DNA of 64,000 bases, taken from NCBI GenBank assembly GCA_938018055.1, contig CALIKL010000010.1:1-64000 (forward strand), written 5' to 3'. Under the pieces are notes generated by a model. That model made no database searches. It worked only from the letters and a program-made list of their open reading frames with translations, and was not told where the DNA came from. The position numbers and the translations under genes were made by a program. The stretch comes from an uncultured bacterium (GTDB lineage Bacteria > Bacteroidota > Rhodothermia > Rhodothermales > UBA10348). Positions 26,051 to 46,766 of the stretch are shown one piece after another. The number at the start of each line of letters is the position of its first letter. Position 1 is the stretch's first letter.

Positions 26051-27211
26051 GTGCCTGACCTTCCCTCTTCGGTCCAGTCTGTTGAAGTTCGTCCCGTGCG
26101 ATCGCGACGCGATCGTCGGGCGTTCATCCAGTTTCCCTTCGATCTGTTCGGAGACACCGAAGTCTGGGTACCGCCCCTTCGTATAGATGTCGCAAAGCTG
26201 ATCAATCCGAAGAAGAATGCCTTCTTCGAACACGGTGACATGCAGCTCTTTTTGGCGAGGGACCAGAACGGCGTGGTGGTCGGTCGTATCGCGGGTATTC
26301 GAAACGGAATGCATCTCGAGAAATACGACGACGGCGTGGGCTTCTTCGGCTTTTTCGATACGATTGAAGATTCCGCTGTCGCCAAGGCCTTGCTGGACGC
26401 CGCTGCTGAATGGCTCATGGGGCAAGGACTGCGCGCCATGCGCGGTCCGACCAATCCTTCCATGAACGATGTGGCTGGACTTCTGGTGGATGGGTTCGAC
26501 AAGCAGCCTGCCATCCTGATGCCCTACAATCACCCGTGGTACGAGGGATTCCTTCTGGATTATGGCTTTGAACGTAAGATGACCATGTGGGCCTATTACG
26601 CCCACACGAGATTCTACAACAAGGAGAGAATGGACCGAGGCATCAGTCTCCTGCGGCGGCGTTTCCCTAATCTGACCATCAGGCAATTGGATATGAGCCG
26701 ATTCGAGGAAGAAGCCCGGCTCATCAAGGACATCTACAATGATGCCTGGTCCGAAAATTGGGGCCATGTGCCCATGACGGATTCCGAATTCAGTCAGCTC
26801 GCCAAGGACATGAAGCAGATCATCGATGAACGCCTTGTGTTGTTCGCCGAGATCGACGGCCAAGAAGTGGGGTTTTCCGTTTTGCTTCCCGATCTGAACT
26901 ATGTGTTCAAGACCATTCCCTCGGGCCGTCTGTTTCCGTTCGGACTCGTCAAACTCTTGAGTATGGCAACAAGCGGCGTTGTCCGAGAAGCACGAATGCC
27001 CCTCATGGGAGTGCGTAAGGCGCATCACGGAAAAGCCATCGATACCGTTCTCATACACGAAAGCGTGGTCAAGAGCTTGGAAGTTGGCATCCTGGCAGGA
27101 GAAATGAGCTGGATTCTGGACAGCAACAAAGTCCTGATCAATGCGCTCGAATCCATGGGCGGCATCAAGCAAAAGGAATACGCCATGTTCGAGGCAGTCA
27201 TCGATGGATAA
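26051..27211 (+). CDS. GNAT-like N-acyltransferase, candidate bacterial ceramide synthase
   Basis: VRSRRDRRAFIQFPFDLFGDTEVWVPPL...GRIAGIRN...RGPTNPSMNDVAGLLVDGFD; follows the SPT-like gene. Confidence 0.6.
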   Translation: MPDLPSSVQSVEVRPVRSRRDRRAFIQFPFDLFGDTEVWVPPLRIDVAKLINPKKNAFFEHGDMQLFLARDQNGVVVGRIAGIRNGMHLEKYDDGVGFFGFFDTIEDSAVAKALLDAAAEWLMGQGLRAMRGPTNPSMNDVAGLLVDGFDKQPAILMPYNHPWYEGFLLDYGFERKMTMWAYYAHTRFYNKERMDRGISLLRRRFPNLTIRQLDMSRFEEEARLIKDIYNDAWSENWGHVPMTDSEFSQLAKDMKQIIDERLVLFAEIDGQEVGFSVLLPDLNYVFKTIPSGRLFPFGLVKLLSMATSGVVREARMPLMGVRKAHHGKAIDTVLIHESVVKSLEVGILAGEMSWILDSNKVLINALESMGGIKQKEYAMFEAVIDG

Positions 27212-27962
27212 TCGAAGTGACTCGTCAAGGCCATCAAAGAGCGGATTGACGTTCGACCGAGAAGCAAGCCGTGTACGGTTTGTCTACTTCGACCTTGACG
27301 ATACACTACTGGACCACACACATGCAGAGCACAGAGCACTGCAAGACATGCACGCCAGTGCCGACCGGCCTTTGGGAAACCAATCCTTTGAAGCGGTCCA
27401 TGCTCTCTATCGGCAGATCAATCCTGTGGTCTGGCAAAAATACTCAGCAGGTGAGTTCACGAAGCGTCAAGCAAAAGTGGGGCGCTTTTCTCAATTACTG
27501 CAGGGCCTGGGGTTGGATACGGGAGCGGACGAGGATTTGGCCCATCGTTATCTGGATACGTATTCGAAGCACTGGCAACCCATAGAAGGGGCATTCGAAG
27601 CCTTTGCAGCTGTTGCCTCGCATCTTCCCACAGGTATTTTGACCAACGGGTTTGTTGAGATCCAGCAGGCCAAGCTCCGACAATTCCCTTTGCTCGAAAG
27701 CTTGTCGGACGTGATTGTCATCAGTGAGGAAGTGGGCGTATTGAAGCCCGATCCAAGGCTGTTCGCTGAATCCGCCCGCAGGGCCGGGATGGATGCGGCC
27801 GAAATTCTTTACATCGGTGACTCGCTTTCCTCTGACGTGGAAGGTGGAATCGGAGCAGGATGGAAAGTGGCCTGGTTTTCCGAGCGGGGTCACCAGCACG
27901 AGGATGTCCACTCGTTTACAGACTGGTCAACCTTGCCAGACCTCGTAGCTCAATTGGCATAG
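27204..27962 (+). CDS. HAD family hydrolase (YjjG-like)
   Basis: FVYFDLDDTLLDHTHAEHRAL, GILTNGF, YIGDSLSSDVEGGIGAGWKVAW; overlaps the previous stop. Confidence 0.9.
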   Translation: MDNRSDSSRPSKSGLTFDREASRVRFVYFDLDDTLLDHTHAEHRALQDMHASADRPLGNQSFEAVHALYRQINPVVWQKYSAGEFTKRQAKVGRFSQLLQGLGLDTGADEDLAHRYLDTYSKHWQPIEGAFEAFAAVASHLPTGILTNGFVEIQQAKLRQFPLLESLSDVIVISEEVGVLKPDPRLFAESARRAGMDAAEILYIGDSLSSDVEGGIGAGWKVAWFSERGHQHEDVHSFTDWSTLPDLVAQLA

Positions 27963-28011
27963 ACAGCCCCCGCTCCGGCGATTCCGGCATTTCCCGAAAA
28001 AAAGTCAGGCC

Positions 28012-28040
28012 AAAAAAAAAGCCGTCCTTAAGGACAGCTT
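28012..28040 (-). terminator. Intrinsic terminator, strong on the minus strand, possibly bidirectional
   Basis: Minus strand AAGCTGTCC-TTAA-GGACGGCTT followed by T7+; lies between the HAD gene stop and the candidate ncRNA. Confidence 0.85.
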
Positions 28041-28757
28041 CTTTTCTGCTCCCGACACGAGAACCTCCCCTGGTGTGGCCTCTACGCCGAAGCGCTTCCT
28101 CCTCACCAGTTCAGGGAGGTTCGAGTCTCAGTGGATCCCACATCTCGTTTGACCGAGATCCGGGTAACACGGTCTCCGCGAACGGCGATCCGTATTGCCT
28201 CCATCGTACGGGCACACGATAAAGACGACAGCCTACAGGGTCTCCGTCCGATCCTCCTTCCTCTTTCGAGGTGGTTTTCATCGGCCGGGCAACGTCTTTC
28301 CTCCAGTAAGCCTCCGAAGAGACGTTCGGGAGAACAGGTTCGTTGGTCAAATGAATCGCTTCGTGACCTGCTGCCGGCCTAAGCCGACTGCCGTGATCTT
28401 TCATCGTTTCATCCCGAAAAGAGGTTTGAAGCAAAGCGCCGGGACGCTTTCGATTCAAGTTTCTTCTCGTTTCCCTCCCTGGTCACATCCAGACGATCGG
28501 AATCATCTTTTTATGACTCGGGATGTCGGCTCTTCACCCGGGATCATCTGCCGTCCAACGCCGGTCTTGCGACCCGCATCTTCGAACATCCCCCTGGCTT
28601 GTAGCCAGCACTGCTCCAACTCCCACTTCGGCTTGCTCGAAACCTAAGCGATCAATGCTGGTGCAGGGGCCCTGCTGTGCCTCCCTTTCGGGTGGCGTGG
28701 CTTGCCTCATGCAGCCTAGAGACTCAGTCGCGTCAAGGAACGGTGCCGTCAGGCACT
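28012..28757 (-). ncRNA. Candidate large structured noncoding RNA (~745 nt), class unknown
   Basis: Consensus promoter upstream, terminator at the 3' end, no convincing CDS, and many short hairpins with GNRA/UUCG loops (e.g. CCC-GAAA-GGG, GGTC-GCAA-GACC, CCTC-GAAA-GAGG, CGC-TTCG-GCG). Confidence 0.65.
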
Positions 28758-28763
28758 GGGACC

Positions 28764-28792
28764 ATTATAGCTCGACCTCCTACCTGAGTCAA
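28764..28792 (-). promoter_or_regulatory. Sigma70-type promoter for the candidate ncRNA
   Basis: Minus strand TTGACT (28792-28787), 17-nt spacer, TATAAT (28769-28764). Confidence 0.8.
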
Positions 28793-28932: not shown

Positions 28933-28964
28933 AAAAAGCCCGGTCCTGACGAACCGAGCTTTTT
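28933..28964. terminator. Intrinsic terminator, likely serving the rhomboid gene on the minus strand
   Basis: AAAAAGCCCGGTCCTGACGAACCGAGCTTTTT, 9-bp stem with one mismatch; T-tract on both strands. Confidence 0.7.
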
Positions 28965-29163: not shown

Positions 29164-29811
29164 CTACAACCCCAGTTGATTCAGGAAACTCTGCAGCGCG
29201 CTGGGCTTCATGATAAGCGTCAAGATCAGTCCCCCGATCGCACCTCCCAAATGCGCTTCATGGGCAATACCACCCAATGCGCCCGTTTCTCGTTTACGCA
29301 TGGCCCAAATGGAAAAGCCGACGAAGCTGAAGGCGAACAACCAAGCTGGGATTCCTATGGCAAAAAAGAGGTAGATCTTTGAAAACGGTTGAAACAGGCA
29401 GAAGGAAAAGACAAGTCCGGAAATAGCCCCGGATGCACCGACTGCACTGTATCCCGGTGTGTCTTTGTGTAGCAGCAAGGTGAGCGCATGAGCCGCTAAT
29501 TCTGCTCCGAAGTAAACAATCAGGAATGCGAACGATCCGATCTGCGCCTCCAAATACGGCCCGAAGTAGTAGAGCGTGATCATGTTGAACGCCAGGTGGC
29601 CCAGTCCACCATGTACGAATCCTCCAGTAATCATCCGGTACCATTCTCTGTTATTGAGAATTTCCCGAGGCTTGAACGACAGCTTTCCGATCAGAGATGG
29701 ATCCTGGTAAAGCGCATAGCCACTCACGAGAATGTTGATTAGAAGCAGAAATAGCGTGAACGGGGTATCGTAAAACACGGTGTTGCCCGGAAAACTGGAG
29801 AGGAGCATCAA
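29164..29811 (-). CDS. Rhomboid family intramembrane serine protease
   Basis: GGFVHGGLGHLAFNMITLYYFG, AVGASGAISGLVF catalytic GxSG, AHLGGAIGG. Confidence 0.93.
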   Translation of the reverse strand: MMLLSSFPGNTVFYDTPFTLFLLLINILVSGYALYQDPSLIGKLSFKPREILNNREWYRMITGGFVHGGLGHLAFNMITLYYFGPYLEAQIGSFAFLIVYFGAELAAHALTLLLHKDTPGYSAVGASGAISGLVFSFCLFQPFSKIYLFFAIGIPAWLFAFSFVGFSIWAMRKRETGALGGIAHEAHLGGAIGGLILTLIMKPSALQSFLNQLGL

Positions 29812-46693: not shown

Positions 46694-46766
46694 GGGGCTA
46701 TAGCTCAGCTGGTAGAGCGCTTGAATGGCATTCAAGAGGTCAGCGGTTCGACTCCGCTTAGCTCCA
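46694..46766 (+). tRNA. tRNA-Ala (anticodon GGC)
   Basis: GGGGCTATAGCTCAGCTGGTAGAGCGCTTGAATGGCATTCAAGAGGTCAGCGGTTCGACTCCGCTTAGCTCCA folds as a cloverleaf; loop ATGGCAT. Confidence 0.97.

Follow-up and report, generated by a model that had tools for sequence, protein, structure and literature searches.

Few bacterial RNA classes of more than 500 nt lack an assigned function, and those that have been studied proved to be membrane ribonucleoproteins or complexes made of RNA alone, nanocages among them (PMC12286853, PMC12265935). OLE RNA, from Bacillota, is large (~600 nt) and intricate, contains highly conserved segments and is distributed in a lineage-patchy manner (PMC11332333, PMC9723947). 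GOLLD RNA is highly structured and in many cases longer than 800 nt, and ROOL RNA is a large ornate RNA whose function is unknown (PMC12286853). RNase P RNA, tmRNA and SRP RNA combine a closed long-range terminal helix with a variable periphery.

The RNA described here was found in a 64,000-nucleotide stretch of DNA from an uncultured member of the Rhodothermales, referred to below as the window. It shares with OLE RNA its large size, intricacy, conserved segments and patchy occurrence, with GOLLD RNA its size class and high degree of structure, with ROOL RNA its large ornate form and lack of known function, and with RNase P RNA, tmRNA and SRP RNA the closed terminal helix and variable periphery. 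It differs from OLE RNA in having no Rfam match, in its taxon and in its flanking genes. GOLLD RNA occurs in phages or prophages near tRNAs and ROOL RNA in phage or prophage contexts near tRNA islands, whereas the new RNA is chromosomal and syntenic and matches no Rfam model. RNase P RNA, tmRNA and SRP RNA each have their own separate gene in these genomes, and the new RNA is not hit by their models.

Position and transcription signals of the RNA gene

The gene encodes a noncoding, highly structured RNA of ~746 nt on the minus strand (28757..28012), between a rhomboid-family protein gene upstream in the same orientation (29164..29811, minus strand; Pfam PF01694, E = 1.1e-30) and a convergent HAD-like hydrolase gene downstream (27222..27962, plus strand; Pfam PF00702, E = 3.5e-21). 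Its start was inferred to lie ~7 nt past the -10 box and its end was set at the terminator U-run. The near-consensus promoter, TTGACT-17 nt-TATAAT (28764..28792, minus strand), matches 11 of the 12 consensus positions and was the sole promoter-like site found within 1.3 kb by a promoter scan (0.5 expected by chance); in an alignment of the 5' ends, the -35/-10 pair is kept in most relatives as TTGAC and TANNAT. An intrinsic terminator hairpin followed by a U-run was read from the sequence at 28011..28045 (minus strand; helix 25 of the 13-sequence structure set). Its helix of 15 bp is conserved among relatives and contains one compensated pair. The hairpin is absent from the list returned by a simple terminator scan, and is likely to be shared with the convergent HAD gene. 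An earlier note, made without database searches, had placed a promoter, a terminator and a series of hairpins in this interval, and all of them are present where it had placed them.

A second terminator-like hairpin (GCTCGGTTC...GGACCGGGC followed by a T-run; 28938..28959, minus strand), also read from the sequence, lies between the end of the rhomboid gene and the RNA promoter, and the two genes are therefore taken as separate transcription units. By its sequence signals, a sigma-70-type promoter and a terminator of its own, the RNA gene is designed as an independent transcription unit, although no transcript data are available.

Comparison with known RNA families and coding potential

No match to any of the 4227 models of Rfam 15 was obtained by cmscan at gathering thresholds, either in the RNA region or in 20 relatives, and lax filters with E up to 10 gave only chance matches, including fragments around the terminator. 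The RNA thus belongs to no Rfam 15 family; OLE, GOLLD and ROOL RNAs all have Rfam models (PMC12286853). The individual candidates were rejected one by one. RNase P RNA gave no RF00010 match and the RNase P gene of the genome lies on another contig (G000:C5); tmRNA gave no RF00023 match, is encoded at G000:C73 and was not found at the RNA locus by ARAGORN; SRP RNA gave no RF00169 match and was detected at other sites in all 22 genomes searched; and 6S RNA, a promoter mimic of ~185 nt (RF00013), had no Rfam match in the RNA region. The setting expected of GOLLD or ROOL RNA was not met either, as the only tRNA of the window, at 46694, is 18 kb away and the locus is syntenic for the rhomboid and HAD genes. 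A search of open-access full texts returned no earlier description, and the RNA is very likely undescribed anywhere; a mention elsewhere, for instance in the 2017 NAR list of 224 candidate RNAs, is not excluded.

As a separate observation, RF00013 detected no 6S RNA in carriers or non-carriers of the new RNA among 22 Rhodothermales genomes, and RF01685 gave no control signal. The 6S RNA of this order may therefore be unrecognised.

A protein-coding or decayed gene that only seems structured was considered, since ORFs of 115 aa (minus strand, 28111-28458) and 150 aa (plus strand) overlap the RNA and antisense ORFs recur in some relatives. Against this, all frames of 60 or more codons in the window copy are interrupted, by stops or by frameshifts, in the majority of 12 aligned relatives, substitutions are spread evenly over the three codon positions, indels are not multiples of three, and it is the structure that is conserved instead. 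This explanation is all but excluded, a very short peptide aside.

Architecture of the RNA

The RNA begins with a hairpin, GUGCC-UGAC-GGCAC (28743..28756, minus strand; helix 1), which is paired in 100% of 13 sequences and strongly conserved across the order. It is followed by a near-invariant 5' core, GUUCCUUGACGCGACUGAGUCUCUAGGCUGCAUGAGG (28705..28741, minus strand), with a mean identity of 85% over 42 sequences, from which a search model named R1 was built; true members score 48-85 bits with this model. The core contains the 5' strand of a first long-range helix, P1 (GUUCCUUGACGCGA; 28728..28741, minus strand; helix 2), whose partner at 28060-28048 is the P1 3' strand (UCGUGUCGGGAGC; 28048..28060, minus strand). 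It also contains the 5' strand of a second helix, P2 (GAGUCU; 28720..28725, minus strand; helix 3), which covaries among relatives and pairs with AGACUC (28123..28128, minus strand). Between the two 3' strands lies the P3 hairpin, GAACCUCCC...GCUUCGGC...GGGGAGGUUC (28061..28122, minus strand), supported by covariation and by a second model, R2, described below.

This layout is found across the order. The 5' core reads as the GUGCC...GGCAC hairpin followed by GUUCCUUGACGCGACUGA-GUCUCUAGG-CUGCAUGAGG, preceded in most loci by the promoter, and the 3' core as AGACUC-GAACCUCCC...GGGAGGUUC-UCGYGUC-RGGAAC followed by the terminator, P1 being formed by GUUCCUUGACGCGA with UCGYGUC..GGAAC and P2 by GAGUCU with AGACUC. 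The spacing between the two cores varies from ~350 to 1030 nt across loci. With the two cores paired to each other and P3 between the 3' strands, the junction closes the entire molecule around a variable middle. In the loci of relatives the 5' ends were aligned and the 3' ends were located separately, and several distant 3' domains (e.g. L046-L052), on which R2 was silent, were placed by eye or by complementarity.

Compensatory switches of P2 in relatives change GAGUCU/AGACUC to GAAUCU/AGAUUC, GGUCUC/GAGACC or GAUCUC/GAGAUC, and in locus L047 P1 switches to GACGAGA/UCUUGUU. As its 5' strand hardly varies, P1 is supported by complementarity, by wobble changes and by a small number of lineage switches, and not by rich covariation. 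This strand is far more conserved than its 3' partner, an imbalance that suggests a second role of the core, for example in protein binding, a tertiary contact or catalysis.

In the interior, a hairpin GUCUUUAUCGUGU-GCCC-GUACGAUGGAGGC (28197..28226, minus strand; helix 19) carries a near-invariant apical GCCC, and the motif occurs in ~40 of 50 relatives, mostly 100-230 nt ahead of the P1 3' strand. An element CGUCCCGGCG (28437..28446, minus strand; invariant block A1) is conserved in relatives of the same family, and relatives also keep the CCC-GAAA-GGG, GGTC-GCAA-GACC and UUCG hairpins as well as the 5' GTGCC hairpin. It was also observed that the stem of the GCCC hairpin covaries across the order while its loop is near-invariant; no receptor of this loop was identified. 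A pseudoknot between the loop (UGCCCAU) and the invariant AUGAGG looks attractive in most sequences and in L047, L051, L052 and L032 (CUCAU), but it is not claimed, as L033, L218 and L219 have AUGAAG without a matching loop change.

Conservation of the GCCC apical loop, together with that of the P1 5' strand in excess of its partner, as would be expected given a second partner, would suit a large regulatory RNA that pairs with target RNAs through its loops or its invariant 5' strand, P1 serving as an off switch. Against this view, complementarity to the rRNA operon of a carrier is at chance level (longest stretches of 7-9 nt versus 9-11 nt in shuffled sequences) and most of the RNA length is devoted to structure, and we consider it unlikely.

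Evidence for a conserved fold

The minus strand folds with a free energy of -328.6 kcal/mol compared to -274±7 kcal/mol for shuffled sequences (z = -7.5), and folding is strand-specific, the plus strand giving a much weaker z of -2.3. Across 13 full-length sequences from the window's family, the 132 proposed pairs (RNAalifold model) are 94.4% standard, and double compensatory changes were found in 54 of the 132 pairs, compared to 34.3±3.0 in shuffled and 18-27 in slid controls. For P3, 42 double-change cells were counted in 40 sequences aligned by sequence alone, versus 14.9±3.4 after shuffling. The RNA of Roseithermus (L058), folded on its own by minimum free energy, yields P1, P2, P3 and the GCCC hairpin, with z = -8.2.

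The R2 model, built for the 3' domain from the window's own family, was tried on 29 loci of other families; in 14 of these it gave a match at E < 0.005 with the strand and spacing expected of the 3' domain. The 14 include L218 and L219, which are in no alignment and in which the R2 match lies ~700 nt downstream of the R1 match. In a tree-based covariation test on the two cores, pairs of P3 ranked first and second among 10296 column pairs; they fell short of significance under the tree-based null (best E for the full matrix ~2), a shortfall to which the misalignment of distant rows contributed. Comparison of sequences thus shows compensatory substitutions in a conserved fold, which meets the criterion for a structured noncoding RNA, with weaker support under the tree-based null.

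The clustering of GNRA and UUCG loops reported in the earlier note held for the window, with 8 such tetraloops on stems of at least 3 bp in the RNA versus 2.1 in dinucleotide-shuffled sequences (none of 300 reached this number); the excess was not significant in the distant relative L058. Its statement that ~745 nt were devoid of a convincing CDS held as well, the 115-aa ORF being broken in most close relatives. The note had left two readings, an unrecognised, diverged copy of some known RNA or a large RNA of a new class. The first is unsupported, given the absence of cmscan matches and the presence of RNase P RNA, tmRNA and SRP RNA elsewhere, whereas the second is supported by strong conservation and compensatory changes, without data on the transcript itself. 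None of the results that it had named as refuting (a match to a known RNA, a lack of conservation or covariation, a conserved protein from the ORF) occurred among those checked. With known RNAs and a conserved ORF ruled out and conservation strong, a new large RNA class therefore remains.

Distribution and genomic context

A DNA search gave matches to the RNA in 54 of 100 related genomes. Several members of the window's genus have full-length matches with 66-83% identity, and the RNA is conserved over its full length across the genus and much of the family; outside the family, DNA matches are mostly limited to the first 40-75 nt. With R1, one confident copy per genome was found in 56 of 114 Rhodothermales genomes, about half of the order, and the gene is single-copy in the window's genome. 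Among the records bearing the core are MAGs of the Rhodothermales or Rhodothermia and a described species, Roseithermus sacchariphilus (CP030158). In a 57th Rhodothermales genome R1 passes only by a weak match within an open frame; weak matches in genomes G063 and G134 and a second match in G079 were dismissed, as they fall within long open frames and do not contain the core.

No credible R1 match was obtained in the remainder of the class outside Rhodothermales, and a sample of the phylum contained no copy outside this order. Matches of 18-mers outside Rhodothermales were rejected, those rescored reaching only 10-24 bits compared to 48-85 bits for true members. A phage element was rejected likewise, the 18-mer matches in viral contigs scoring just 10-18 bits, which is chance level. 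In the genomes searched, the family is thus found so far only in Rhodothermales, with the window copy as its founder. On a tree of the rhomboid protein, presence of the RNA requires 3 label changes, versus 11.3 with shuffled labels, and inheritance is therefore mainly vertical, with a few losses or gains.

The rhomboid gene is the same-strand upstream neighbour of the RNA in 30 loci and the HAD gene its downstream neighbour in 28, the rhomboid-HAD setting being found in ~30 of 50 loci. In some families (f9 and f12; L046, L051, L052 and L048-L050) the RNA is located elsewhere. The downstream gene is convergent in the window, where no neighbour is placed for cis-regulation by the RNA. Since in syntenic loci the RNA follows the rhomboid gene in the same orientation, it could be a cis element, namely the 3' UTR or a processed tail of the rhomboid mRNA. 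This is very unlikely, as a conserved promoter directly precedes the RNA, a separate terminator-like hairpin follows the rhomboid gene, and at L046 and L048-L052 no rhomboid neighbour was found, yet the RNA core is retained.

In several relatives with the same gene order and no RNA (L229, L232, L233 and L234), the rhomboid and HAD genes are at most a few tens of bases apart. As they nearly touch there, the RNA is truly absent and has not merely diverged. The neighbouring genes give no functional lead, since the identical gene order occurs without the RNA.

Two further features of these regions were observed. The copy at L046 adjoins what looks like a phosphatidylserine synthase gene, and the 3' domain is most divergent in L046, L051, L052 and L048-L050. 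Beside the HAD gene of the window is an ORF of 386 aa (26051-27211, plus strand), conserved in 25 loci and without a Pfam match at E 0.001.

Proposed nature of the RNA

A conserved, structured, noncoding RNA with its own transcription signals is very likely, in the absence of transcript data, and its assignment to a new class of large bacterial RNA is supported, transcription and function being inferred. The reading that we favour, with moderate confidence, is that 28757..28012 (minus strand) encodes a single-copy, trans-acting noncoding RNA that would act as a scaffold. The P1/P2/P3 junction closes a large body of variable length bearing further conserved hairpins, one of them capped by GCCC. 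Together, the closed junction and the conserved core may make up a stable body to which a protein partner, or other copies of the RNA itself, would bind; no partner or assembly was identified. By analogy with OLE, ROOL and GOLLD RNAs, the RNA would then be the scaffold on which a ribonucleoprotein or RNA assembly is built. It may be sufficiently dispensable for some lineages to have lost it, and its patchy presence speaks against an essential core function.

Alternatively, the RNA might be a new large ribozyme, whose active site, made up of the 5' core and the GCCC hairpin and held together by the junction, would catalyse processing or another reaction, possibly with proteins. The RNA resembles known large ribozymes in its size, in its invariant core segments (GGCUGCAUGAGG), in its closed junction and in its variable periphery, and the same argument is made in the OLE literature (PMC11332333). 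However, no Rfam ribozyme matched, many lineages lack the RNA, and the invariance of the GUUCCUUGACGCGA strand is at least partly explained by base pairing, so that this alternative appears unlikely. A bolder reading, which remains possible, is an undescribed large RNA class, mainly vertically inherited in Rhodothermales, that is itself a catalyst or builds an RNA-only particle and ranks with OLE, ROOL and GOLLD RNAs.

The RNA would add to the known large RNAs one more class, outside phages and the Bacillota, whose promoter, terminator, closing junction and invariant core are defined. Relatives that have the same gene order and lack the RNA are natural controls, and its presence in the described species Roseithermus sacchariphilus (CP030158) may offer a tractable system for finding out what such RNAs do.
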